This document shows positions 1,916 through 25,720 of a stretch of DNA of 25,902 bases, one piece after another. The stretch spans positions 1 to 25,902 of the IMG/VR virus record IMGVR_UViG_3300030419_000979. The stretch is one strand, 5' to 3'. Position numbers and translations under genes: made by a program. The notes under the pieces were generated by a model. That model saw only the letters and a list, made by a program, of their open reading frames with translations. It was not told the DNA's origin and ran no database searches. The DNA is from a virus. How positions within the stretch are numbered: the first letter of the stretch is position 1; each line of letters opens with the position of its first letter.

Positions 1916-3450
1916 ACTATTGGTCCTCCTATTGTGTAATAATAATCTGATGTTGGTTGTATTATATATAAATTTTCTTTTGCCCTTGTTGTGCCTACAT
2001 AAAATAATCTATGTTCTGCATCTTGATTTTCATACGCACTACGATAAATAAATTCATCTTGACCCTCAACACCATAGTCCGTAAATAAACATACGTTATC
2101 GCACTCTTTACCTTTTGACCCATGTAAAGTTAATAATTGTATTTTTGATTTTTCCATTAATGTATCTCCTCTCTCTAGTAATGTTTGCATATATTCTTTC
2201 GTATCTTCTGGAAAATGTAATTGTTTCCAATCACCATCTATTAGTAAACCATGTTCACTTTTTAATTTTTCTAAATCAACACTTGTTTCACGTTGTATAG
2301 TTTTACCATCTGAATAACCTCTACGTACGTGTCCTTTTTTTACTAATAAATAATTATAAAGTCTTTCAGCTTCTTCAGGAGAAACAAATGCTCCTTGATT
2401 TAATCTTGTCCAAACTTGATATGCTTCTAATATAGAATTAGGTAAGTATTTATTTGACCTACCTGTAAATCGCACACCTAAAAAATAAAAGTGTTCTGAA
2501 ATATTAAGTAATAATTTGTTTGTTCTAGCTAATATCATCCAATAACCTTTAGAAAAATCTATTTCATCTAGTGTATGATTGGGATAAACTGCTCCCTCTG
2601 CATCTCTTGGTATCCATTTTTTATCTATTCTACTTGTAAGTTGATTTAATATTTTAATAGCCTCCTTATGTATTGCTTTAGGTACACGACGAGATATTTC
2701 TTGATCATCTCGTTCTCCTTCTTGTTTCATAAAATAATCAGGATCTGCACCTTGAAACCCATAAATAGTTTGATCATCATCGCCAGCCATATACGCTCGT
2801 TTACATTTTGATTTTATATAATCAAAACATTTCCATTGATGAGGACTTAAGTCTTGGGCTTCATCGAGGAAGACGGCATCGAGTGGAGGACACCGATCTT
2901 CCTCGACAAACTTGTTAATCATGTCATAGAACTCAACCATATTAGTTCCGTCCTTGAATGATTTTAAATCTGTTTGTAATTGTATTGTAGAGTCTACATC
3001 TATTTCATGATGTTTTTGTAATTCAACAGCAGCATCCTCTATAGAAATTAATTTAGATCTTGAGTATTGTATTATTTGTAAATGTGTGTTTTGATATTTA
3101 GGATTACCTGCTGCATCAACAGTAGTCTCAAAAGATATATTTAACCACTCAGGATACTCTTGTTTAAAACGATTCCATTTTTTACCTGTTAATAATTGAG
3201 TGTTTGCATCTATGTTTGACTCTCTCATACCCATAGCATGCATTGTAGATATATATTTTAGTTTACTATTAGGAAATAATTCTGCAATTCTTTCTGACGC
3301 TTCTTCTGCTGCAGCTCTACTAAATGTAATGTATACTATTTTTTCAGGGTCAATAGCATAATCGTTTAATTCTTTTTTTAAATAATAATTAACTAATCTA
3401 TATGTTTTACCAGTACCTGGCGGACCCATTATTTTTTTAACTATAGCCAC
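1912..3450 (-). CDS. UvrD/PcrA-like superfamily 1 DNA helicase
   Basis: This 512-aa SF1A helicase is shorter than cellular UvrD (about 720 aa). The motifs appear in order: Walker A GPPGTGKT (residues 9-16), ITFSRAAA (Ia), DEAQD (196-200, motif II), GDDDQTIYGF (223-232, motif III), LLTLHGSKGKE (motif V) and LFYVGTTRAKENLY (motif VI). It should unwind DNA 3'-5' using ATP, probably at the phage fork or in repair. The start codon is GTG at 3450. The next Met lies directly before the P-loop and would remove the first beta strand, so GTG is preferred. The gene begins inside the end of the primase gene (10-base overlap) and its stop overlaps the DUF3310 start, which indicates one coupled operon. Confidence 0.93.
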   Translation of the reverse strand: MAIVKKIMGPPGTGKTYRLVNYYLKKELNDYAIDPEKIVYITFSRAAAEEASERIAELFPNSKLKYISTMHAMGMRESNIDANTQLLTGKKWNRFKQEYPEWLNISFETTVDAAGNPKYQNTHLQIIQYSRSKLISIEDAAVELQKHHEIDVDSTIQLQTDLKSFKDGTNMVEFYDMINKFVEEDRCPPLDAVFLDEAQDLSPHQWKCFDYIKSKCKRAYMAGDDDQTIYGFQGADPDYFMKQEGERDDQEISRRVPKAIHKEAIKILNQLTSRIDKKWIPRDAEGAVYPNHTLDEIDFSKGYWMILARTNKLLLNISEHFYFLGVRFTGRSNKYLPNSILEAYQVWTRLNQGAFVSPEEAERLYNYLLVKKGHVRRGYSDGKTIQRETSVDLEKLKSEHGLLIDGDWKQLHFPEDTKEYMQTLLERGDTLMEKSKIQLLTLHGSKGKECDNVCLFTDYGVEGQDEFIYRSAYENQDAEHRLFYVGTTRAKENLYIIQPTSDYYYTIGGPIV

Positions 3451-4979
3451 GGTGATTTCTCTACTTTTGTTGTTCTAGGGTTTGGTCTTTCTAATTTAAT
3501 TGTTGGCACCTTTAATAATCTAACAGTCTTAACACCTACTTTAGGAGATGTTTCCTCTGCTTCAAATAAAGATTGTAGCAATCTCATTGTTTTTTGTTTA
3601 GGATAAGTTTTTTCAGCCCAAGATTTTGTTTTTAATAAAAACTTCCAAAAATCTTTAAATTTAAAATATGTAAAACCATCAGTATCTGTAAATGCAATAC
3701 CTCTCATAACATCTTTTAATTCTTTACCTGGAGTTTTATTTATATAATCTGCTAGTATTTCTTTTAACTGAACATCTAGCTTAGATGATTCTGGTGCAGG
3801 TATTGTTTCTAAATTTGCAAATAATTTTATTAATAATCTACGCCACATATGTTTTGGCACAGGCATCATTGGTTTACCTATTTGATTCATACAAGCTAAT
3901 GAAAATTTTTCAGGATCGTGTAATGTTGCATCATCAACCTCAACACTTTCTCCATCTATTGATGCAAAGTATATTGGCGGATCAGAGTCATATTTTCTTA
4001 TCTCACTTATTTCTGGTGCTGGTGCATTATCCCCCACACCAAATTCTTTTAGTGCACATTTCTTAGCATCACAAAAACTATGTATAGGTTCATCCTTACA
4101 TTTATAGTTATATTCCTTACTATCTAAAGAACCTATTAAAGTATTTATTTCTGTTGCATCTAAAGGTGGAGTCATAAATTGTTTATTGTATGTAAACATA
4201 TGACTTTGCCATTCTTCTTTGTCAGGATATCTTTTTTTAAGATACACGCCAACATTATACATACAGTTGTTTCTTTGACCATCAGGTACACCATCACTTA
4301 ATAATGTAACTAAGCAAGGAGGCATACCTTTAAATAAATCTATTTTTTCTTTCTCACTTTCTATTTTTAATTCATTTAATTGTTCTAAAGTTAAAGATAC
4401 TTTTTCATGTAAATTAAAAAATTCTTCTAATTTTAAAACACCCCCATCTAAACTATAGGCATATCTAACTGTTCTTTCATTTGCATGATAAGGAAGATTT
4501 AAAAAACTACCTGTATCCCCTCTATCAACTCTTATATAATCTTGTTTTGGAAATATTTCTGCACTAGCAAAACCCATTGCAGATGCAATTAGTTTTAGTT
4601 TTACTCTCATCACAGTCGCAGGTACAAAGTCTTTAGTAAATAAAAATGCATGTGCACCACCTGATTTAGATCGGCACACAATCATAGGTATATTTTTTTG
4701 TTTTAATTTTTGTATAAATTTTTTGTGATCAAATGGATAGGTGTCAATATCAATACATCCCCATTTACATTTATTTTCTTTAGTAATAGGAACAATACCT
4801 AAAGCTGGATCTTTACCTTCTAAATGTTCTCTCCATAATTTTTTTGTTACAGGATTTGATATTGTAAATGATTTAGTTTTATGCTTACCTTTTTCGCTAA
4901 ATTGATCTGTTTTGACAGTTTGACCGTAGGCACTATCTAAGCCTTCGAATATTTTTATAAATTTATCTAATTCTATCAT
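3441..4979 (-). CDS. Archaeo-eukaryotic primase (AEP/PrimPol-like) with C-terminal four-Cys domain
   Basis: This is a phage primase of about 512 aa. The N-terminal AEP core shows CIDIDTYP with the metal-binding DxD (residues 77 and 79 from the ATG) and SKSGGAHAFLF with the catalytic His near 110. Both resemble the AEP clade that includes primases of TOTE conflict systems. A second region begins GMPPCLVTLL and continues through GQRNN and WQSHMFTYNKQF to YKCKDEPIHSFCDAKKC. Its four Cys (about 222, 294, 303, 308) could bind a metal or an Fe-S cluster as in PriL; this is inference. The C-terminal 200 residues are unassigned. I chose the ATG at 4979, which has GAG five bases upstream; a GTG at 4985 is also open. 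A strong hairpin lies just upstream. The product probably primes for the neighbouring polymerase. Confidence 0.85.
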   Translation of the reverse strand: MIELDKFIKIFEGLDSAYGQTVKTDQFSEKGKHKTKSFTISNPVTKKLWREHLEGKDPALGIVPITKENKCKWGCIDIDTYPFDHKKFIQKLKQKNIPMIVCRSKSGGAHAFLFTKDFVPATVMRVKLKLIASAMGFASAEIFPKQDYIRVDRGDTGSFLNLPYHANERTVRYAYSLDGGVLKLEEFFNLHEKVSLTLEQLNELKIESEKEKIDLFKGMPPCLVTLLSDGVPDGQRNNCMYNVGVYLKKRYPDKEEWQSHMFTYNKQFMTPPLDATEINTLIGSLDSKEYNYKCKDEPIHSFCDAKKCALKEFGVGDNAPAPEISEIRKYDSDPPIYFASIDGESVEVDDATLHDPEKFSLACMNQIGKPMMPVPKHMWRRLLIKLFANLETIPAPESSKLDVQLKEILADYINKTPGKELKDVMRGIAFTDTDGFTYFKFKDFWKFLLKTKSWAEKTYPKQKTMRLLQSLFEAEETSPKVGVKTVRLLKVPTIKLERPNPRTTKVEKSPWL

Positions 4980-4994
4980 TTCCACTCGATAAGC

Positions 4995-5026
4995 GTAGGC
5001 GGTCTACGTCTCCATCGACCGCCTAC
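4995..5026. other. GC-rich intergenic hairpin between ssDNA-binding-like gene and primase
   Basis: There is a perfect 10-bp inverted repeat, GTAGGCGGTC (4995-5004) and GACCGCCTAC (5017-5026), with a 12-base loop. It fills the only gap between two minus-strand genes and stands out as GC-rich in AT-rich DNA. No T-run follows on either strand, so it is not a standard intrinsic terminator. It could be a leaky terminator, an RNA-processing site or a stabilising 3' end for the upstream message. Confidence 0.75.
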
Positions 5027-5034
5027 TATTCACA

Positions 5035-5757
5035 CTATTTGCTAGCTAAACTAGTGTAAAATTTCTTAGCACGTTCATATAAAGACTCATCCTTTACAGG
5101 ACCTTCTTTAACAACATTATAACCATACCATTGATTACCTTTGCCAGAATTTAACACTGTTGTTAGTTTATAAGAGTGGCTAAATGATGGCGGTGTGTAT
5201 GGACCGTTTTTCCCATCAAATGAAATGGACATCATCATTGAGTTCCATTTCCTACTCACCTTACCTTGAGATGAACTCATTGAAACTAAAGCCTGTTCAG
5301 TTCCGTCATCTCCAACAAGCAACACAAAATGCTGTCCAACAGTTAAGATATAATTACCATTTTCTAATCTATCTTTACCTGAACCATCTTTGGTTGTTTG
5401 AGCCAAAATATCTGAGCCATCTGGAAAAATGTTTTCTGGTCTACCAGAACCCGTTCCAAAGTCAGCCCACTCTTGATATTCTAACTTATAATGGCAAGGT
5501 ATAACCGATATCCCTTTTGCTCCATCATACAATTTTTTTGTAACTGTATTTAAAAGCATTCCAGGTTCAGCCCCATCAACATAATTTTGATTACGTCTTT
5601 GAGCTTCACCTGAGCCATTTTGTAATAGTTTCAAAATAGGCAAAGCCAAACTAGTTGTCTTTACATTCTCAAAACCATGAGCAGCATCATCTTCAAATAA
5701 TATAGATGATGGTAGCCCTGCTTGTTTCTTTATTGCTACTTGTTTCTCGTCACTCAT
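5035..5757 (-). CDS. Conserved phage protein, candidate ssDNA-binding/annealing protein
   Basis: This 240-aa protein has no catalytic motif that I recognise. It is of a type common beside primase/polymerase genes in marine phages, with conserved-looking blocks LPILKLLQNGS (43-53), GMLLNTVTKKLYDG, ISVIPCHYKLEYQEW and SFSHSYKLTT. The middle is rich in Gly, Ser and aromatic residues, and beta strands are likely. The C-terminus is helical (SLYERAKKFYTSL) rather than acidic as in classical SSB. The ATG at 5757 has AAGGAG six bases upstream. It follows the coiled-coil gene with a 2-base gap and precedes primase. A single-stranded DNA-binding role is inferred from position and composition only. Confidence 0.5.
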   Translation of the reverse strand: MSDEKQVAIKKQAGLPSSILFEDDAAHGFENVKTTSLALPILKLLQNGSGEAQRRNQNYVDGAEPGMLLNTVTKKLYDGAKGISVIPCHYKLEYQEWADFGTGSGRPENIFPDGSDILAQTTKDGSGKDRLENGNYILTVGQHFVLLVGDDGTEQALVSMSSSQGKVSRKWNSMMMSISFDGKNGPYTPPSFSHSYKLTTVLNSGKGNQWYGYNVVKEGPVKDESLYERAKKFYTSLASK

Positions 5758-17198: not shown

Positions 17199-17540
17199 CT
17201 ATGTTGTAACCTCTCTAGGCTTAGATTCTAAGGCTGAAAGCACTACATGGAGTCTATTAGCTGTTGCTGCAGTCACTTTTAATACTTCACTTTCTTGTAA
17301 TACTAAAGGAGCTGATAATAATTCTGTTGTTGCATTAGCAGATATAGCTTTAGTTTTAAAAAGACTAAATACTGCATCTGATGTATCTGTTATAGTAACT
17401 GTTATAGTATCAGCATTTCCAGAATCCTCTGATACCAATATAGATTTAATTATAGCTGTTGTAGCTGATGGCACTGTATATAGTGTTGTTGCACTATTGC
17501 TAGTTAAATCTGCTTTTTTATTTACAAATGAATTAGCCAA
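17199..17540 (-). CDS. Small beta-rich virion protein (paralogue of the 120-aa protein)
   Basis: This 113-aa protein is predicted to be mostly beta strand: alternating hydrophobic residues and short turns, no signal peptide, no catalytic motif. It aligns with the 120-aa protein at 25358-25720: VPSATTAIIKSILVSEDSG against VPDNKVAKINTILVANVDG, then SAPLVLQESEVLKVTA against ENPIYLDETDLLYFTA. Both may be virion decoration or fibre-base proteins (inference). The start codon is TTG at 17540, supported by GGAGG nine bases upstream and the lack of any ATG in the first third. The start lies 8 bases inside the preceding 54-aa gene. Confidence 0.65.
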   Translation of the reverse strand: MANSFVNKKADLTSNSATTLYTVPSATTAIIKSILVSEDSGNADTITVTITDTSDAVFSLFKTKAISANATTELLSAPLVLQESEVLKVTAATANRLHVVLSALESKPREVTT

Positions 17541-17697
17541 AGAAAAAAGCCTCCACTTCTGATTCGTCTTTTAAATCTTGTTGATAAGTAGTATTTAATT
17601 TTTGTACAATACTATCTACATCTCTTACAAAAGACTGTTGTATTTGTTGATCATATTCTTTATTAGGTTGTGTTAATGCTTGCACTATTCTTGCCAT
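17533..17697 (-). CDS. Small conserved-looking phage protein (54 aa)
   Basis: This 54-codon gene starts with ATG at 17697, forming a TAATG overlap with the stop of the tail stabilisation gene, and ends with TAA at 17533-17535. The product begins MARIVQALTQPNKEYDQQI and continues as a polar Gln/Asp-rich helix with SIVQKLNTTYQQDLKDE, ending in FFFG. I recognise the general pattern (VQKLN-TYQQDLKDE) from small genes found after this tail gene in marine phages, without a known function. It carries the GGAGG ribosome site for the next gene in its last codons, so the two are probably coupled. Confidence 0.7.
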   Translation of the reverse strand: MARIVQALTQPNKEYDQQIQQSFVRDVDSIVQKLNTTYQQDLKDESEVEAFFFG

Positions 17698-19838
17698 TAT
17701 CTTCTACCATCTGGTTGATAGTCTATTCTAAAAGTCCCTACTTTCCAAAACTGACTTGTACTTGTGTTATCTATTTTTAATGATATTGATCTAGCTCTAG
17801 CTCGTGTATCAATCTTTTGTGTACCACTTGTTACCGTAAACGGACCAAGCGTTGAGCTAGCTGCTGTATCATTTGGAAAATCTCTTAAATTTAATGTAAC
17901 TCTTGCATCACCAGTTTGTGATAAAAAGTCAGGTATTACTCTTCTTATTTTCATCATAAACTCTCCGTCTCCAGCAAGCCCTTGTTGACCAATATCAAAA
18001 TCACCTGATTCAATATTTGCAGTAATCGCAGTTGTTGCACCTTCTTTAACTTGGTTTAACCCTGTTTCATGCTCATAGTATGTTGATGTACCATCTTGAT
18101 TACCAAAAATATAATTAGTATCTGTGGTTGCAGTTGTACCATCTTCATCGTATTCTGTTGCATGTGGTAACCCAAAGACAGCAGAATCTTGCCACGCAGT
18201 TCTAGCTAATGTTCCTGTAGTCCACACAGGTCGCTCAGGACTTGAGTCTAGATAATTATATGCAACCATTCTATTAACTGTTCCTGAACCTGAGTTTGGA
18301 TAAAACCATATTATTTCACCAAATAAATTATTTAATCCAGCATTAATATGTTGTTTAGGAATTGTATTAATATCATCATAAACAAAGTCTTCAACTAAAC
18401 ATGGCAATGATTCTAGTTTACCAGTATATCTAAAAAAACCATTCTCTGACATCCAGTAAGCTGTACCATCAACTTCTACAGCTGCGTTCTGTCCTATTAA
18501 TCCACAGTTAGTACCAACTTGTTGAAATGAAAAAGTAAACGGTGGACCAACAAATCTCATAATAAATAATGCTGTATCAGTCCAAATATAAATTGCATCT
18601 CTACCTCTAAGAGCTCCAACTATTTTAGATCCATCTGCTAGTCTTTGAGTGCCTGCAGTATTAGTTGCTGATGGTGTGTACGTGTTAATATCTTCTTGAG
18701 ATGAAAATCTTATAAACATAGGATCTTGTGTAGAAGATGTACCAACAGTTGTTTCTGTTCCAAAAAATACTAAGTGTCTGTCTGGAGTAGATACTATACT
18801 AAACGCAGATGCAGTTGGTGCACTTGTTATAATACTAGCTCTTGTTGACACAGAACCATTTGAATCCCATTCAAAACTTTCACCGCCGTTTATTGTTGCA
18901 ATTAATTTATTACCAAAATTATCTAGTGACCAAAGTCCAGGAGCTGTTATTACGTCTCCTGAAGCTGCAGCATTCCATGCAAAAAAGTTAGATGCGTCTG
19001 TTACAGTTGCACCAGAACTATGTGATGCTGCTGTTGTGCCTGATGCGCCTCTAGTTAATCCAGATAAAGTTCCACCACTATTACCAGTGTATGTTATTAA
19101 TTCACTGTCTATTAAAACAGTTCCAGAAGATGGAAATGAACTTGAGCTAGCCATTGTTAAAGAAGTTACAGATGTATTTATTGATGATGATAATGTTGAT
19201 GTAAATTGTCCTGTTTTAAAACCACTCCAAGGACCAAGTCCAAATCCAGTAGATGCAACTTCTACTGCTGGTCCAACAGGATAGTAATGTCTAACTCTAA
19301 TACCACCAGATGTAGATGCACCTGATCCAGATTCATTAGACCCAACATCTATAGTAAGAGTTGTTGAAGTTGGTATCGATTGAACCATAAATTTATTATC
19401 ATCAAAATTTTGTGAATTAAAATTAGAATTAGTTATAGATGAAAAATTATCTAATAATATAATATCAAATTGATTTATATTATGTGCCGACGAAAATGTT
19501 AATGTTACAGTTGATGACCCATTTGTTGTAGTAAAGGCACTTGTTAAAGTTGTTGTAGCTTTAATTGGATGTATGTCATAAAAAATACCACCAGAATAAA
19601 CATACAATATTCTATTAGTTCCAAGAGCTGCATACTTAATACCTGATGCATTAACAAAATGATGAATAGCTGTGTTACGACCTGTTAATTCAATAGAACC
19701 TAATTGTGACCAACCCCCTATTTTTTCAGGTGATCCATATCTAAAACGAACATTGTCCCCTGAAACCCATTGACTCTCGCCGCCTGTTGATGTGACCTGT
19801 TTATTAAAACCTGGTGCAAATTTTACCTTTTGTAGCAT
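17697..19838 (-). CDS. Phage tail/packaged-DNA stabilisation protein (P22 gp10-like)
   Basis: This 713-aa protein is rich in beta strand, Ser, Thr and Gly, with repeated blade-like segments suggesting a beta-propeller, such as AIHHFVNASGIKYAALG, SRILYVYSGG-like turns and IYIWTDTALFIMRFVGPP. It opens with LQKVKFAPGFNKQVTSTG and FRYGSPEKIGGW, a start typical of a tail protein widespread in marine short-tailed phages and resembling the P22 gp10 stabilisation family. A Gly/Ser/Thr-rich insertion at about 95-285 (TSLTMASSSSFPSSGTV) looks like an added beta domain. It probably closes the portal and links it to the tail fibres. AAGGA lies six bases before the ATG, and a terminator-like hairpin lies just upstream. 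Confidence 0.7.
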   Translation of the reverse strand: MLQKVKFAPGFNKQVTSTGGESQWVSGDNVRFRYGSPEKIGGWSQLGSIELTGRNTAIHHFVNASGIKYAALGTNRILYVYSGGIFYDIHPIKATTTLTSAFTTTNGSSTVTLTFSSAHNINQFDIILLDNFSSITNSNFNSQNFDDNKFMVQSIPTSTTLTIDVGSNESGSGASTSGGIRVRHYYPVGPAVEVASTGFGLGPWSGFKTGQFTSTLSSSINTSVTSLTMASSSSFPSSGTVLIDSELITYTGNSGGTLSGLTRGASGTTAASHSSGATVTDASNFFAWNAAASGDVITAPGLWSLDNFGNKLIATINGGESFEWDSNGSVSTRASIITSAPTASAFSIVSTPDRHLVFFGTETTVGTSSTQDPMFIRFSSQEDINTYTPSATNTAGTQRLADGSKIVGALRGRDAIYIWTDTALFIMRFVGPPFTFSFQQVGTNCGLIGQNAAVEVDGTAYWMSENGFFRYTGKLESLPCLVEDFVYDDINTIPKQHINAGLNNLFGEIIWFYPNSGSGTVNRMVAYNYLDSSPERPVWTTGTLARTAWQDSAVFGLPHATEYDEDGTTATTDTNYIFGNQDGTSTYYEHETGLNQVKEGATTAITANIESGDFDIGQQGLAGDGEFMMKIRRVIPDFLSQTGDARVTLNLRDFPNDTAASSTLGPFTVTSGTQKIDTRARARSISLKIDNTSTSQFWKVGTFRIDYQPDGRR

Positions 19839-19906: not shown

Positions 19907-20554
19907 TTATTTAGATATTTTAAAGCCTTTATACCATGCAGGCAACCCTAAAAATGGTCTTTTATCGTATTGGTTTTCTTTTGCTATTTTAGAATTAGCT
20001 TTGTTATAATGTAAAAATACTTGTCCACAATCTTTACCAGTAAACTCTTCTCTCCAATGTTCTAAATCACAACCAGAATAAATTAACATATCCCCTGGTT
20101 TTAATTCTATTTTAATACCAGCTTGACCTTTATTACCTGTTGGATCTAAATAAATAGGCCATGGATCACCACCTAAATTTAATGTCGTAGATATTTCACA
20201 AGAATATCTATCTTTGTGTCTAGCTAATATATCCCCTTTTTTATATATTCTAGCATAAGAATATGTTTCGGATAATTTTAATCCTGTATGTTTTTCCATA
20301 GTAGGTTTTACTTGTTGTAATAAAGTTTCCATTGCAATATCTGAATAATGTGAATAAGTGTTTGGAACTTGATGATCATGCCATATTCCAAAATATTCTG
20401 TAAAAGGTGATATATATCTTTGATTAAATAAAAAACTTGCTACGTTTCTTTTATTTAAAAAATATTGATAAACAAAATTTGCTAACTCTGGTGAAATAGC
20501 ATTTTTTAAAATAGAATATTTATTTTTTTGAAACGCCGATTTTTTTAATGACAT
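19907..20554 (-). CDS. 2-oxoglutarate/Fe(II)-dependent oxygenase
   Basis: This 215-aa protein has a double-stranded beta-helix oxygenase pattern. The Fe(II) ligands appear as HKD (His113, Asp115) and His166 in DLEHWRE, preceded by the typical LKPGDMLIYSG strand. The usual distal Arg or Lys that binds 2-oxoglutarate is not obvious; Lys174 or residues in QVFLHYN may fill that position. The N-terminal 60 residues are helical. It would couple 2-oxoglutarate decarboxylation to hydroxylation of an unknown substrate. AAAGGA lies four bases before the ATG, and its start lies within the preceding 51-aa gene. It is the last of three oxygenases between the fibre and tail genes. Confidence 0.8.
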   Translation of the reverse strand: MSLKKSAFQKNKYSILKNAISPELANFVYQYFLNKRNVASFLFNQRYISPFTEYFGIWHDHQVPNTYSHYSDIAMETLLQQVKPTMEKHTGLKLSETYSYARIYKKGDILARHKDRYSCEISTTLNLGGDPWPIYLDPTGNKGQAGIKIELKPGDMLIYSGCDLEHWREEFTGKDCGQVFLHYNKANSKIAKENQYDKRPFLGLPAWYKGFKISK

Positions 20555-20675
20555 TTTTTCCTTTCAATTGCATTTTAGATTTTATAAAATTATCTATAAA
20601 ATTTGGTTTATTTTTTAAAGGAGTTGAATCTAATATAGTTTTAATTACAGCTTTTTTCATATCTTTATTTTGCAT
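20520..20675 (-). CDS. Small basic protein between two oxygenases (51 aa)
   Basis: This 51-codon gene starts at an ATG (20675) with AAGGAG six bases upstream, placed inside the end of the 226-aa oxygenase gene, and stops with TAA at 20520-20522. The product begins MQNKDMKKAVIKTILDSTPL, contains KPNFIDNFIKSK, and is strongly basic (about one residue in four is Lys). It looks like two short helices with no known motif. It overlaps the oxygenase before it by 11 bases and the one after it by 35 bases. An alternative is a leader whose translation couples the two oxygenases. I do not recognise a family. Confidence 0.6.
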   Translation of the reverse strand: MQNKDMKKAVIKTILDSTPLKNKPNFIDNFIKSKMQLKGKNVIKKIGVSKK

Positions 20676-21345
20676 TTAATACTCCTTTTGGAATTGCTTG
20701 ACAATTCCAATGTATAAATCTAAATGGTTCATATCCCATATCTACTACATATTGATGCGGCATATAAGAAGGAAAAAATATTAATCTACCTGGTTTTACA
20801 TCATAGTTTATTTGATGACTTGCATAAGTTATTTTATTTGTATCTTTTTGAGGTAAAAGATTCATTAGATTACCTGGTCTTGGATCTTCAAATATAGGTC
20901 TTGAAGTTTTTTCACTAGCTTTTAAAAAATAAAAACCAGAAATATGTCCATTCCAATGAGTGTGTAAAGTATGATGACCTCCTCCATTTTTAGCAAACTC
21001 TTGCACCCACATTTCTGTAATAAATACTTGGTGTTGACTTAAATCAAAACCCATTTCTAATAATAAGTTATGGGATGTTGCTCCTACATAATTTTGTAAT
21101 TCTAAAAAATTAGGATCTCCTATTAAAGTGCTAGAGTGAAATACATTACCCATGTCTCCTTTATTACCAAATTTTTTATTTCTTTTATTAATATCTTTTT
21201 TTAAATTTTTTTTAGATTGTTTAATATATTTATCAGATGCTTTATTTAATTTATTTACAAACGCAGGTTCATCTGCAAACCAAATGGGGCATTTAAAATA
21301 ATCTTCTCTTGCTAGTTCTTTAGGAAATATTTTTTCTTTTTTCAT
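20665..21345 (-). CDS. Putative 2OG-Fe(II) oxygenase (2OG-FeII_Oxy_5-like)
   Basis: This 226-aa protein resembles the putative 2OG-Fe(II) oxygenases common in T4-like and marine phages. The metal site is HTHWNGHISGFYFLKA (His128, His130), and the second half reads VKPGRLIFFPSYMPHQYV (His197) followed by FRFIHWN (Arg209), the expected distal 2-oxoglutarate ligand. The first ligand pair is H-x-H rather than the more usual H-x-D, as in that family. The N-terminus is Lys-rich (IKQSKKNLKKDINKRNKK). The start overlaps the previous gene's stop as ATGA, so translation is coupled. The substrate is unknown. Confidence 0.82.
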   Translation of the reverse strand: MKKEKIFPKELAREDYFKCPIWFADEPAFVNKLNKASDKYIKQSKKNLKKDINKRNKKFGNKGDMGNVFHSSTLIGDPNFLELQNYVGATSHNLLLEMGFDLSQHQVFITEMWVQEFAKNGGGHHTLHTHWNGHISGFYFLKASEKTSRPIFEDPRPGNLMNLLPQKDTNKITYASHQINYDVKPGRLIFFPSYMPHQYVVDMGYEPFRFIHWNCQAIPKGVLNAK

Positions 21346-21971
21346 TTAAAAGGCCATCCTAAATTCCATATTACTAAACTATATCTTGATCCTTTTTTAA
21401 CTGGACACACTCTGTGCCAAACATCTGATGGAAACACAACTAAAGATCCTTTTGGTAATATTTCTTTACATTTAACAGGTTTTCTAGGTTTATCAGGATC
21501 TAAATTTCTATAATCAAATTCTAATTCTCCTCCTGTATAATCTTTCTTACCTTCTGATAAAGAAACAGTTACAGATAATTTTCTTATTTTACCATTTGAG
21601 TTAGGATCATTTGGTTTATTATAAGGTTGATCCCAACTATCAGAGTGCCAATCATAATATTGTCCTTTATTATATTTAGTAAATTGACAAGATTCAGAAA
21701 AATCCCATTGAAAATTCCAACCAGCATTTTGATTTGCTTTTTGAATATAAGGTTGTATTTCTTTATAAATCCAACGATCATCCATCCAAACAACATTTGA
21801 ATTTCTTTTCTTTTTTAAATCTTTAATCTGTTTATTATTTAATTTTTTAGGATTATATCCACCAGTAACAGCAATTTGATCTTGTAATTGTTTTCCATAA
21901 CGAACAATATCGTCGCAAATTCTTAGAGGAATTGCTGATTTAAAATACCAATAATAATTAGTTAAATTCAT
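21342..21971 (-). CDS. Prolyl 4-hydroxylase-like 2OG-Fe(II) oxygenase (PKHD type)
   Basis: This 209-aa protein shows the complete active-site set of the P4Hc/PKHD hydroxylase family: WHSD (His109, Asp111), LPKGSLVVFPSDVWHRV (His186) and SRYSLVIWNLG with Arg196 as the 2-oxoglutarate ligand. A central strand KLSVTVSLSE and TGGELEF match the family core. Relatives hydroxylate prolyl residues in proteins, and PKHD proteins in bacteria are linked to iron uptake, so peptide hydroxylation is the natural guess. AAGAAAG lies three bases before the ATG. It is the first of the three oxygenase genes and immediately follows the two-domain Gly-rich fibre gene. Confidence 0.87.
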   Translation of the reverse strand: MNLTNYYWYFKSAIPLRICDDIVRYGKQLQDQIAVTGGYNPKKLNNKQIKDLKKKRNSNVVWMDDRWIYKEIQPYIQKANQNAGWNFQWDFSESCQFTKYNKGQYYDWHSDSWDQPYNKPNDPNSNGKIRKLSVTVSLSEGKKDYTGGELEFDYRNLDPDKPRKPVKCKEILPKGSLVVFPSDVWHRVCPVKKGSRYSLVIWNLGWPFK

Positions 21972-21992: not shown

Positions 21993-22011
21993 AATAATAT
22001 ATTTTATTATT
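21993..22011 (-). terminator. Possible weak terminator after two-domain fibre gene
   Basis: An AT-only inverted repeat, AATAATA (21993-21999) and TATTATT (22005-22011), has a five-base loop and is followed on the minus strand by a short T-run. It overlaps the stop codon of the 616-aa fibre gene. The stem is weak, so termination here would be partial at best. Confidence 0.3.
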
Positions 22012-23860
22012 AACTTAAAGTCAATGTTCCAGAAACTTTAAATGTTGCAATTTTTTGACCACCCGGAACAGAAGATGTTGAATTACAACCAGGAGAAACC
22101 GATATTGTCGCACAAGCTGGTACTCTTACAATTACAATACCACTACCTCCAGCTTTTCCAGTGGCTGGATTATTATCATGGTCACCACCACCTCCACCAC
22201 CAGTGTTAGCTGTACCTGCTGTATTACTAGGGCTTCCACCTTGTCCTTGGCTACCATTACCTCCACCATTTGCACCACTACCTGCTGCAACGTATTGAGC
22301 TCCACCACCGCCACCACCAGCAAAGTATCTTAAAGAACCACATGGTCCTGGAGTTCCAATAGGAGAGGCTGGATTAATTGCTGTTCCTGCACCTGCTCCA
22401 CCATCTCCACCTTTTCCAGAAGGTCCTGTAGGAGAAGGACTTGCAGGAGAACTTGGTGCGTCTTGACCAGCAGCTCCGGCTCCACCACCGCCACCACCAG
22501 ATCTTCTTCTTCCATCACCACCTGCATTACCTTGGGAAGGACTTACTGGAGGAGTATTTCCCGCTCCTCCTGGAAATGCTGAATCATCACCATTTCCACC
22601 TCCACCACCAGAACCTCCAGCTTGACCGGGACTTTGTGATCCACAACCACCACCGCCACCACCACCAGCAGCTGTGATACTATCGAAAACTGAATTAGAA
22701 CCATTATTACTTGCGTCATCACTTGTTTGAGCACCACCAGCTCCGACTGTAATTGAATGACAACCAACTGCAATATTTAATGGAGATACACCTGAGCCAA
22801 GTGGAGAAACTGTATAACATCCTGTTGCTGTTCCACCTGATTCTCTAAAACCGCCACCACCGCCGCCACCACCTCTTTTTGCGCCAGCAGAACCACCACC
22901 AGCAACAACCATATAATCTACATCGTAATGAATAAGATAAGGCCATGTTGTTGCACCACATGCTCCTGCTGTTAATGCAGACATATGTGTTTTTAAATTC
23001 CATACACCACTTGCTTTTGTTAATTCTCTTACTATTACTACACCAGGTCCACCAGCACCTGAATTAGCATTAGCTGGTCCACCACCTGATGATCCACCTC
23101 CACCACCAGTATTATTTGTTCCTGCAGTTCCTGCTTGACCTGTTCCACCAGGTCTTGCTCCACCAGCTCCACCACCGCCAGCTCCACCAGCTCCAGCAGC
23201 ATCTCCATCAGCATCACTACCAGCACCACCTCCACCACCAACTGCAGAAATAGGAGAGGGAAAACTAGCTGGAACACAAACTCCTGCACCTCCAGCGCCA
23301 CCTGCGGGTCGACATGCACATCCACCAGCAGCACCTGCTCCACCACCACCATAACTTTTTGGCGAACTTCCTGATGGAAAACCACCTCCTGGATTTCCTT
23401 GAGAAGGTGATACGGGAGGCACGTTACCTTGACCACCTGGTTTACATGCTAAACCTCCACCACCTGATCCACCATCTTTTACAGCTGAAGGAGTGCACGC
23501 TGCATAAACCCCTGCACCTCCACCTGCTGATTGAAAACAAGAACTAACTATGTTGGAAACATTTCCTACATTTCCATTTGTTCCTGGTCCTGGTACTGCT
23601 GCACCTCCACCACCAATAGTTATAGGAGTAGCTGTATTACCAGAAACTGGTATATTAAAAATTGTTCTAACACCACCTGCACCACCTCCACCTCCTCTAT
23701 CAGAAGCTCCTGATCCACCACCACCAACTACAAAAGCATCAACTACTTTAGTTCCGGGTTGTGTAGTTACATTTCCTGTTGATGTTCTAGTAGTAACAGT
23801 GCATTTTCCAAAAGATGCGGTATTTTTTATACCAATTATACCGCCGTTTGTTCTAGCCAT
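22010..23860 (-). CDS. Glycine-rich tail fibre/adhesin with two Gly-rich domains
   Basis: This 616-aa virion protein is built from two related Gly-rich units. Each opens with a strand (VVDAFVVGGGG at 39-49, VDYMVVAGGG at 314-323), has a conserved NxPPVSPSQGN motif (146-156, 435-445) and closes with VVIVREL (274-280) or GIVIVRV (574-580). The units join at SGVWNL, a motif common in marine phage fibres. Dense poly-Gly suggests a polyglycine-II-like fold as in S16 gp38 adhesin (inference). Fourteen Cys is unusual for a phage fibre. The N-terminus MARTNGGIIG matches the neighbouring fibre. The C-terminus ends in IATFKVSGTLTLS, which resembles the lead-in of another unit. It probably recognises the host surface. 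Confidence 0.72.
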   Translation of the reverse strand: MARTNGGIIGIKNTASFGKCTVTTRTSTGNVTTQPGTKVVDAFVVGGGGSGASDRGGGGGAGGVRTIFNIPVSGNTATPITIGGGGAAVPGPGTNGNVGNVSNIVSSCFQSAGGGAGVYAACTPSAVKDGGSGGGGLACKPGGQGNVPPVSPSQGNPGGGFPSGSSPKSYGGGGAGAAGGCACRPAGGAGGAGVCVPASFPSPISAVGGGGGAGSDADGDAAGAGGAGGGGAGGARPGGTGQAGTAGTNNTGGGGGSSGGGPANANSGAGGPGVVIVRELTKASGVWNLKTHMSALTAGACGATTWPYLIHYDVDYMVVAGGGSAGAKRGGGGGGGGFRESGGTATGCYTVSPLGSGVSPLNIAVGCHSITVGAGGAQTSDDASNNGSNSVFDSITAAGGGGGGGCGSQSPGQAGGSGGGGGNGDDSAFPGGAGNTPPVSPSQGNAGGDGRRRSGGGGGGAGAAGQDAPSSPASPSPTGPSGKGGDGGAGAGTAINPASPIGTPGPCGSLRYFAGGGGGGAQYVAAGSGANGGGNGSQGQGGSPSNTAGTANTGGGGGGDHDNNPATGKAGGSGIVIVRVPACATISVSPGCNSTSSVPGGQKIATFKVSGTLTLS

Positions 23861-23869
23861 AGAGTACCC

Positions 23870-24337
23870 TTACACGGATACCCATTGAGTATTATCCGCG
23901 TCCCATCTGTAATTTGAATTGTCTGATTTTTTAGTTCCTAACCATCTTAAATTATCTTCATCCCAAGTTATTGAATAATCTGATTGATCTCCAGCTGGAT
24001 AAGTAACTGGTGCTTTCCAATCATCACTACCATCTAAAGCCCATGAAGCATAAGGTTGAGGTGTTAAAAATTTATTTTTTGATGCATTATAGACATAACC
24101 TATACCTGCATATTGTTTTCTAAAATTATTGTTATAGGAAGTTTGTTTCCAAGTTCCACCACCAAAAAAATTTACACACCATGTTTCACCATCAACATGC
24201 ATATCATTATCTTCTAATTTACCACCATTAGCTTCTACATCATTACCTACAACAACAACTCTTTTTACAACCAGATGTGTATCTGATGTAAAACCTGTTG
24301 GATCTGTTTTTGATTCTAATTCTGCAAAATGTGCCAT
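23870..24337 (-). CDS. Conserved T4-like/cyanophage-type small protein
   Basis: This 155-aa protein closely follows a pattern found in many marine myo- and podoviruses: MAHFAELE at the start, VVVVGNDVEANGG, then WKQTSYNNNF, KQYAGIGYVYN, FLTPQPYASW and repeated Trp-containing strands (ITWDEDNLRWLG, YRWDADNTQWVS). The function is not established; the location among fibre genes suggests a virion or fibre-attached component. AAAGGA lies before the ATG. A 10-base gap containing AAGGG leads to the next fibre gene. Upstream, the AT-rich gap 24338-24388 holds a perfect 14-bp palindrome (24348-24361) that may be part of a promoter. Confidence 0.72.
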   Translation of the reverse strand: MAHFAELESKTDPTGFTSDTHLVVKRVVVVGNDVEANGGKLEDNDMHVDGETWCVNFFGGGTWKQTSYNNNFRKQYAGIGYVYNASKNKFLTPQPYASWALDGSDDWKAPVTYPAGDQSDYSITWDEDNLRWLGTKKSDNSNYRWDADNTQWVSV

Positions 24338-24388: not shown

Positions 24389-25342
24389 TTAAAAACTCCA
24401 TTCTCCTTGTTTTACATAATCATATACTTCATTTAAAGTCCATAAACCAGGTGCTCCTTTTGGACTAGCAGGTTCTTTTATAATAACTATTCCTGAACCA
24501 CCAGCAGCACCATTATGAACTCCTGAAGGAGCTGATCCACAACCACCGCCACCACCGCCACCACCAGTGTTTGATGAGCCAGCTGTTGTAGCTGTAGTGC
24601 CTGTACACGTTCCGCCATTTCCACCACCACCTGCACCACCTGGTGTTACGGGTTGACATTCGTTTCCTCCACCGCCACCACCAGCGTAGGTTACATCTGA
24701 ACCTGAAATTGTGTTTGGAGCACCTGCTCCACCTGCTCTTGCAGGAGCTGGGTTCATAGGAGAAGTTGCTGATCCACCAGCGGCTGTTGCACCGCCACCA
24801 GAACCAGAGGCTTTATCAGAACCTGAATCAATACCTGTACCACCATCATTACCTTGAGGTGGATCTGTTGGAGGAGTATTACCTGCTCTTGGAACAGGTC
24901 CTACTGATGTTTTTGTACCAGCACCAGATCCTCCTTGTGCTAAAGGTGAACTAGCTGGAGAACCAGCACCACCACCAGCAGATGTTATAGTATTGCATCC
25001 TGCATAATTAAAAACTGAATTACTTCCTTTACCACCTGTTTCAGGTCCAGGTCCTCCAGCAGCTCCACCAGCACCAACTGTAATTGTGTATCCTGTGCAT
25101 TTTACTACTGGCACAGCACTACCTCGTAAAGGACTAGGTCCAAATCCAGATGCACGATAACCTCCTGCACCGCCACCACCATTTAAACGAAAACCACCAC
25201 CGCCACCACCAGCAACTACTAAATAATCTACATTGCCTGTAATTTGAGCTGTGTAAGTTCCTGATGAATTAAATGTTGCTACTCTTGCACATACTGCTGC
25301 AGTAAAACTAAAATTTGGTCCTATAATTCCGCCATTTGCCAT
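24389..25342 (-). CDS. Glycine-rich tail fibre/adhesin with one Gly-rich domain
   Basis: This 317-aa protein is a one-unit paralogue of the 616-aa fibre. It begins MANGGIIGPN, has the lead-in VATFNSSGTYTAQITGNVDY and VVAGGGGGG (38-50), the motif NTPPTDPPQGN (155-165), and closes with GSGIVIIKEP followed by APGLWTLNEVYDYVKQGEWS. The body is mainly Gly, Ala, Ser and Thr with poly-Gly runs, consistent with an adhesin built on packed Gly-rich strands. The C-terminal WTLNE segment recurs in many marine phage fibres and may be an attachment or trimerisation element. AGGAGG lies eleven bases upstream of the ATG. It is read between the 120-aa and 155-aa virion genes. Confidence 0.7.
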   Translation of the reverse strand: MANGGIIGPNFSFTAAVCARVATFNSSGTYTAQITGNVDYLVVAGGGGGGFRLNGGGGAGGYRASGFGPSPLRGSAVPVVKCTGYTITVGAGGAAGGPGPETGGKGSNSVFNYAGCNTITSAGGGAGSPASSPLAQGGSGAGTKTSVGPVPRAGNTPPTDPPQGNDGGTGIDSGSDKASGSGGGATAAGGSATSPMNPAPARAGGAGAPNTISGSDVTYAGGGGGGNECQPVTPGGAGGGGNGGTCTGTTATTAGSSNTGGGGGGGGCGSAPSGVHNGAAGGSGIVIIKEPASPKGAPGLWTLNEVYDYVKQGEWSF

Positions 25343-25357
25343 AGCCTATAAAACCTC

Positions 25358-25720
25358 CTACGCGTCGTCTAATAGTTCGTATGATACAAAGTAACTTAAA
25401 TCATTTGCAGCTGAAGCTGTAAAATATAATAAGTCTGTTTCATCTAAATAAATTGGATTTTCTAAAAAACTTAATGTTGCATCTGCTGGAACTGAAATAG
25501 TTTTTGCAAGATCAACATAGTTAGATCCATTATCTATACTAACTTCAATTGTTATATCAGCAGCGTTTGAGCCATCAACATTTGCAACTAAGATTGTATT
25601 TATTTTTGCTACTTTATTATCTGGAACATCAATTGCTTCTGTTCTTGATGTGCCTGTCAATTTAGCTGCTGCATTATTAGCAGTAATTGTTGCTACGTTT
25701 ACTATATTTGGTGTTGCCAT
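25358..25720 (-). CDS. Small beta-rich virion protein (paralogue of the 113-aa protein)
   Basis: This 120-aa protein is predicted to be a beta sandwich, with strands such as KINTILVANVDG, ADITIEVSIDNG and DLSYFVSYEL. It is related over most of its length to the protein at 17199-17540, sharing the blocks I-x-ILV-x(2-4)-DG/SG, then P(L/I)(V/Y)L-x-E(S/T) and a final ANxL strand. It is acidic with no Cys. AAGGAG lies five bases before the ATG. The position just before the first Gly-rich fibre suggests a fibre-base or decoration protein; the activity is unknown. Confidence 0.65.
   Translation of the reverse strand: MATPNIVNVATITANNAAAKLTGTSRTEAIDVPDNKVAKINTILVANVDGSNAADITIEVSIDNGSNYVDLAKTISVPADATLSFLENPIYLDETDLLYFTASAANDLSYFVSYELLDDA

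Follow-up and report, generated by a model that had tools for sequence, protein, structure and literature searches.

The window, that is the whole stretch of 25,902 nucleotides analysed here, is a pelagiphage contig from an IMG/VR record and a close relative of Pelagibacter phage HTVC033P. Its fibre region, encoded on the minus strand, opens with the gene of a 317-aa Gly-rich fibre (24389–25342; 28% Gly; PF21722, 4.6e-21), followed by that of a 155-aa fibre-associated protein ('MAHFAEL'; 23870–24337; phrog_7759, 7e-30) and that of a second, 616-aa Gly-rich fibre (22010–23860; 31% Gly), which has two Gly-rich units and is matched by PF21722 in two stretches (6e-29). The 155-aa protein is thus placed between both fibre genes, and the oxygenases and then the stabilization protein come after. 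The repeated proline motif initially read in the fibre amounts to three PPxxPxQG occurrences in total, one in the 317-aa protein and two, both as PPVSPSQGN, in the 616-aa protein.

Directly behind the second fibre, with a gap of 38 nt between its stop and the next start, lies ox3 (21342–21971, minus strand; 209 aa), a PKHD/P4H-like 2OG-Fe(II) oxygenase (PF13640, 2.5e-18). It is followed on the same strand by ox2 (20665–21345; 226 aa; PF13759, 2e-14; TIGR02466 above cut-off), by a basic 51-aa ORF (20520–20675) and by ox1 (19907–20554; 215 aa; phrog_2954, 3e-53), a prolyl-hydroxylase-like 2OG oxygenase. The genes are intact and overlap by 4 nt (ox3/ox2), 11 nt (ox2/51-aa ORF) and 35 nt (51-aa ORF/ox1), so that the sequence-only reading of three tightly coupled oxygenases next to a Gly-rich fibre, with a small basic protein between two of them, was correct. 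The gene of a head/stabilization virion protein (17697–19838, minus strand; phrog_3287), which served us as a neutral survey anchor, closes the interval. Two short virion-region proteins of phrog_1276 (17199–17540 and 25358–25720) flank the fibre region on either side, and elsewhere in the window (3441–4985) a primase is encoded that combines PriCT_1 with an archaeo-eukaryotic primase domain of the TOTE type (PF22548).

The gene set and its order are identical in HTVC033P, at 79–84% identity to the window, and the order ox3-ox2-ox1 is kept in HTVC023P and 023Pt_psg01; the arrangement is therefore not due to chance, and the cassette, genuine and intact, is widespread. The conservation of the 51-aa ORF is limited to close relatives, homologues being present in HTVC033P and in some ten contigs of IMG/VR.

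Active sites and folds of the oxygenases

All three proteins carry the HxD/E (or HxH) plus distal His triad of 2OG-Fe(II) oxygenases. The putative catalytic residues H109/D111/H186/R196 of ox3 and H128/H130/H197/R209 of ox2 are invariant in 133/133 and 89/89 relatives, respectively, which bears out the claim that metal and co-substrate residues can be read in the first two enzymes; in both, the late-strand Arg expected to bind the 2OG carboxylate (R196 and R209) is among them. ox1 is the oxygenase in which H-x-D but no clear distal Arg had been read from the sequence: its putative metal ligands H113/D115/H166 are invariant in 197/197 relatives, and the position of the Arg is occupied by Gln178 in 195 of the 197. 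By its profile ox3 matches PiuC/PKHD structures, and it shares the domain and the metal and 2OG residues with the PKHD-type PiuC/YbiX, although its score is far under the YbiX/PiuC equivalog cut-off. In the case of ox2, the domain match and the shared metal and 2OG residues place it with TIGR02466/PF13759.

For ox1, no Pfam or NCBIfam match was obtained in the profile search, and the PDB sequence search yielded matches at chance level only. The structure model, built on 61 sequences (mean pLDDT 95.8), has the double-stranded beta-helix fold (VIA Z about 15), and its best Foldseek matches are the P. putida prolyl-4-hydroxylase (PPHD) and PHD-type enzymes (E 4e-9). The greater part of the model aligns with PPHD and PHD2 (Z about 15, 11–16% identity), while their Arg for the C5 carboxylate of 2OG is replaced by the nearly invariant Gln178, which is also found in the cyanobacterial relatives of ox1. 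R102, R116 and R168 are invariant or nearly so, and by their conservation they are candidates to take over the 2OG contact from the missing Arg. The fold and triad of a prolyl 4-hydroxylase are thus seen in ox1 through the model and the residues, and in ox3 through PF13640.

In PHROGs the ox1 family, phrog_2954, bears the label 'ferrochelatase', which has been reused in published papers on auxiliary metabolic genes. The ferrochelatase profile PF00762 matched none of 23 phage records, 21 of them with phrog_2954, with positive controls in 8 cellular genomes. In S-SCSM2R, ACG-2014f, S-T4 and S-SCSM1 the phrog_2954 and PF13640 domains share one open frame in an ox1-ox3-type fusion, and phrog_3531 covers both ox1-like and ox3-like parts. 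On the silence of PF00762, the prolyl-4-hydroxylase-like model and the fusion to a 2OG domain in cyanophages, we reject ox1 as a ferrochelatase: the label of phrog_2954 and phrog_3531 is wrong, and both families are prolyl-hydroxylase-like oxygenases. The labels 'DNA endonuclease' and 'DNA endonuclease V' are also borne by phage genes inside oxygenase cassettes (L160:8071-8595, L161:7823-8326, L004:8242-8724); the 'DNA endonuclease' family neighbouring the oxygenases in S-SM1 (L160:8071-8595) matches PF13640 above cut-off, and so does an S-RIM32 gene with the annotation 'DNA endonuclease V'. The genes at L160:8071-8595 and L161:7823-8326, both with this match above cut-off, look like further mislabelled 2OG oxygenases. 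Since ox1 relatives of 46–47% identity adjoin NRPS genes in the cyanobacteria Brasilonema and Rhizonema (L404:4962-5633, L406:3985-4707), the wider ox1 family includes peptide-tailoring contexts.

The glycine-rich fibres

The analogy with the modification of collagen, made in the sequence-only reading, had to be abandoned. The longest (GXX)n runs of the two fibres are 4 and 5, compared with means of 4.2 and 5.1 in shuffled sequences, and long uninterrupted repeats are absent. The model of the 317-aa fibre (pLDDT 82.8) matches the fibre of cyanophage Pam3 (Z 14.9 over 183 residues) and the tail tip of Bxb1 (Z 14.3), with a weaker match to the ALK glycine-rich domain; a PDB search with the fibre sequence gave zero matches. 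With G-X-Y runs that do not exceed those of shuffled sequence, and with the fold of Pam3 and Bxb1, the fibre is a polyglycine-helix adhesin and not a collagen. A Gly-rich core with distal loops is common to Pam3 gp24, S16 gp38 and the Bxb1 tail tip, and the fold of our fibre is alike, by structure match in the case of Pam3 and Bxb1; S16 gp38 is absent among the structure matches listed, which is not evidence for a different fold. The glycine-rich domain of Pam3 bears variable distal loops that were proposed to bind the receptor (PMC9608196), and by analogy a receptor-binding role at the tail tip may be assumed for the fibres of the window. Unlike the window phage, S16 and Bxb1 have no PF13640/PF13759 gene; as Bxb1 makes its PF21722 tail-tip fibre without any 2OG gene, the fold itself does not need 2OG genes.

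The PPxxPxQG motif was considered as a universal substrate and was rejected. It is linked weakly and to ox2 alone, which is found in 41 of 53 loci with the motif and 29 of 58 without (p=0.003, uncorrected for the tree). Many Gly-rich fibres accompanied by ox1 and ox3, including T4-like fibres, lack it, and its proline therefore cannot be the general substrate.

Association of the oxygenases with fibre type

The survey set consisted of IMG/VR contigs that were fetched by the stabilization gene, independently of oxygenases and fibre, and that extended 5 kb or more upstream. Orthologues were called at bit-score cut-offs of 200/150/190, chosen after viewing the distributions; the scores are clearly bimodal for ox2 (≤46 or ≥177) and more graded for ox1 and ox3. 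At these cut-offs ox1 is present in 26/32 loci with a Gly-rich fibre and in 2/24 without (p=7e-8), ox3 in 23/32 and 1/24 (p=2.5e-7), and ox2 in 14/32 and 1/24 (p=8e-4). The single locus with ox3 and no Gly-rich fibre, L295, starts near a contig end, and so its fibre gene may simply be lost. A 2OG gene of any kind, by contrast, occurs in 32/32 loci with the fibre and 21/24 without (p=0.07), and the rule that any such gene accompanies a Gly-rich fibre was rejected. The refuting condition named in the sequence-only reading, oxygenase homologues being just as common in phages that lack Gly-rich fibres, thus applies in part: the 2OG class as a whole comes close to it, and only the orthologues of ox1, ox2 and ox3 follow the Gly-rich fibre. 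Other 2OG paralogues are present at loci with tail-collar-like or kelch-like fibres, and at LamG-like fibre loci this interval is devoid of 2OG genes. Each PF13640/PF13759 match of the four complete HTVC023P-type genomes falls within the fibre interval.

The same preference is seen along the tree of the anchor gene, on which fibre type changed 13 times, giving 13 independent pairs for comparison. The orthologue changed in the same direction as the fibre in 8.9 pairs and in the opposite direction in 0 for ox1 (median p 0.004), in 8.4 and 0.5 for ox3 (p 0.02) and in 5.1 and 0.2 for ox2 (p 0.06), while the presence of any 2OG gene (2.1 and 0) gave no significant result.

The module of Gly-rich fibre, associated protein and ox3...ox1 is common to podovirus-type pelagiphages and, in slightly varied form, to the T4-like phages S-SM1, S-RSM4, Mosig and HTVC008M. 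In S-SM1 and S-RSM4 the fibre is followed by a MAHFA-type protein and then by an oxygenase cassette with ox1 last; the proteins after the Gly-rich fibre in these two phages and in L385 share the N-terminal motif of the 155-aa protein. Of nine T4-like marine phages with PF21722, eight have ox1 no more than 10 kb away from it (1.3 expected by rotation, p=5e-5), and of 13 with a Gly-rich fibre, 11 have their nearest 2OG gene no more than 5 kb from that fibre (4.3 expected, p=1.5e-4). S-MbCM6 is without PF21722, and the sole Gly-rich ORF found in its genome, of a different kind, immediately precedes ox3-ox1. In a freshwater phage contig (L415), a Gp38-type adhesin (PF05268) is encoded near homologues of ox1 and ox3. 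There are counter-cases, S-P4 and P-SSM7, whose ox1 relatives are placed among DNA-replication genes.

Two further features of T4-like phages were seen in passing. In T4-like cyanophages, runs of about eight to ten mostly 2OG-related genes begin soon after the tail-fibre genes (L159:6316-12588, L160:6846-13099, L427:7291-12781). In Mosig, genes annotated as heme oxygenase and phycocyanobilin:ferredoxin oxidoreductase directly follow the oxygenase cassette (L007:12984-14220).

Possible function of the cassette

In our opinion, the best-supported explanation, and a moderately probable one, is that ox3-ox2-ox1 form a tailoring cassette for the receptor-binding fibres of the phage. The main grounds for favouring it are that specific orthologues switch together with the fibre and that the pairing recurs in unrelated phages. 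As the enzymes and the fibre type come and go together, the fibres are probably decorated chemically.

The published interpretation is a different one. In HTVC023P-type pelagiphages the 2OG genes and the 'ferrochelatase' were reported to be co-located and were read as iron- and heme-related genes of host metabolism (Wittmers 2022; PMC9599517), both were found enriched in seasonal viruses in a 2024 time-series paper, and host reprogramming was proposed in the S-CREM1 and S-SCSM1 papers. According to this interpretation, put forward for cyanophages as well (PMC9599517, PMC11561400, PMC9602691), the targets of the oxygenases and of the presumed ferrochelatase during infection are small molecules or the 2OG/iron metabolism of the host, and the great diversity of 2OG oxygenases and the presence of cellular ox1 relatives in NRPS clusters agree with it. 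The genes, the phage group and the co-location are the same as ours; here, however, the 'ferrochelatase' is an oxygenase resembling prolyl hydroxylases, and the set goes with fibre type. A metabolic role predicts neither the switching of particular orthologues with the fibre nor the confinement of every copy to the fibre interval in podovirus-type genomes, and we regard it as unlikely.

The interval from the fibre to the neck/stabilization genes may alternatively be an insertion hot spot, in which fibre and oxygenases travel together by linkage only, without any interaction. Further tailoring genes do gather there, the 2OG class as a whole has no fibre preference, and the adjacency means that a single recombination moves fibre and oxygenases at once; co-inheritance by linkage therefore explains part of the association. 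As a full account it seems quite improbable, given that the orthologue-specific pairing repeats on unrelated phage backbones, that LamG-like fibre loci have no 2OG gene in that interval and that the sites show no variation among as many as 197 sequences. Fibre type may, in addition, reflect the host.

Hydroxylation of host proteins, such as EF-Tu or ribosomal proteins, steering translation during infection, appears highly doubtful: the top structural match of ox1, the P. putida enzyme, was solved in complex with EF-Tu (4iw3), and ribosomal oxygenases exist, but PHD2, SnoN and EctD match the same fold at similar scores, and such a role gives no reason for the dependence on fibre type. We give hardly any credence to AlkB- or TET-like modification or repair of nucleic acids, for although the ox1 relatives of S-P4 and P-SSM7 adjoin DNA methyltransferase and clamp-loader genes and nearby families are labelled 'endonuclease' in PHROG, the fold matches are hydroxylases of proteins and small molecules, with AlkB scoring lower, and in the lineage of the window the genes sit only among fibre genes.

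If the cassette does serve to tailor the fibres, ox3, ox2 and ox1 would, judging from their invariant metal ligands and fold, be active 2OG-Fe(II) oxygenases, expressed late along with the structural genes; in the accessible part of the HTVC027P transcriptome paper, no class is given for gp73. We infer that the enzymes would hydroxylate or otherwise oxidise amino-acid side chains in the fibres of the phage itself, which are Gly-rich and of the polyglycine-helix (Gp38/Pam3) type, or else in a fibre-assembly partner, in either case ahead of virion assembly. Their fusion in some cyanophages suggests that ox1 and ox3 work as a pair. Each fibre type would have its own enzyme set, and the set would therefore be swapped along with the fibre; the likely gain would be that exposed loops are stabilised or receptor contacts altered. 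Of the original proposal that the cassette acts on the phage's fibres, the functional link is sustained by synteny in unrelated phages, orthologue co-occurrence and co-switching on the tree, and the proline of PPxxPxQG as a general substrate is given up. A precedent for a viral prolyl hydroxylase, mentioned in a Baltic Sea paper, comes from chlorella virus PBCV-1, whose prolyl 4-hydroxylase is believed to have Pro-rich proteins of the virus itself as substrates (Eriksson 1999, in PMC9301287); PBCV-1, however, is a eukaryotic virus with a single enzyme, whereas the window belongs to a tailed phage that encodes three, next to a fibre of the polyglycine-helix type. Our literature coverage was incomplete; within it we found nothing on point about hydroxyproline in phage virions, no evidence from mass spectrometry of virions, and no publication linking such oxygenase cassettes to fibre modification.

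Other tailoring genes are found in the same interval. In S-RIM44, Sf-FP1 and S-CREM1 the stretch from the Gly-rich fibre to the oxygenases holds one or two genes of tryptophan halogenases; S-CREM1 encodes a 'collagen-like' Gly-rich protein, then a halogenase and then some eight oxygenase genes in a row. Flavin tryptophan halogenases were located between Gly-rich fibre genes and 2OG oxygenases at L426:5634-8745, L427:4664-6268 and 108370-109926 of PV340854, and, within the oxygenase cassette, at L403:1599-3170. Halogenases occur in 11 of the IMG/VR loci, sulfotransferases in 9 and carbamoyltransferases in 8, and they mostly adjoin 2OG genes in the fibre interval (for sulfotransferases and carbamoyltransferases of relatives, L106:968-1762, L113:7693-8499, L293:2356-3099 and 4525-5622, L304:4505-6115). 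To our knowledge, no natural substrate of a viral tryptophan halogenase has been described; halogenation of the adjacent fibres is possible, and, should the tailoring of virion adhesins be confirmed, these enzymes would gain a concrete substrate candidate.

Few 'auxiliary metabolic genes' are counted more often in ocean viromes than gene sets of this kind, and the mislabelling of phrog_2954 and phrog_3531 as ferrochelatase is already inside ecological conclusions on iron and heme. If adhesin tailoring is their true role, they should be counted as virion-maturation genes and not as host-metabolism genes. As a more tentative generalisation, plausible though short of probable, marine phages may commonly run post-translational tailoring of their receptor-binding fibres, in which polyglycine-helix adhesins would receive non-standard side chains from fibre-specific 2OG sets, in some cases aided by flavin halogenases, sulfotransferases and carbamoyltransferases; the set would be exchanged along with the fibre, leading to a chemical diversification of host range beyond the 20 amino acids. 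The chemistry of the adhesin would then be a new variable in phage host range.
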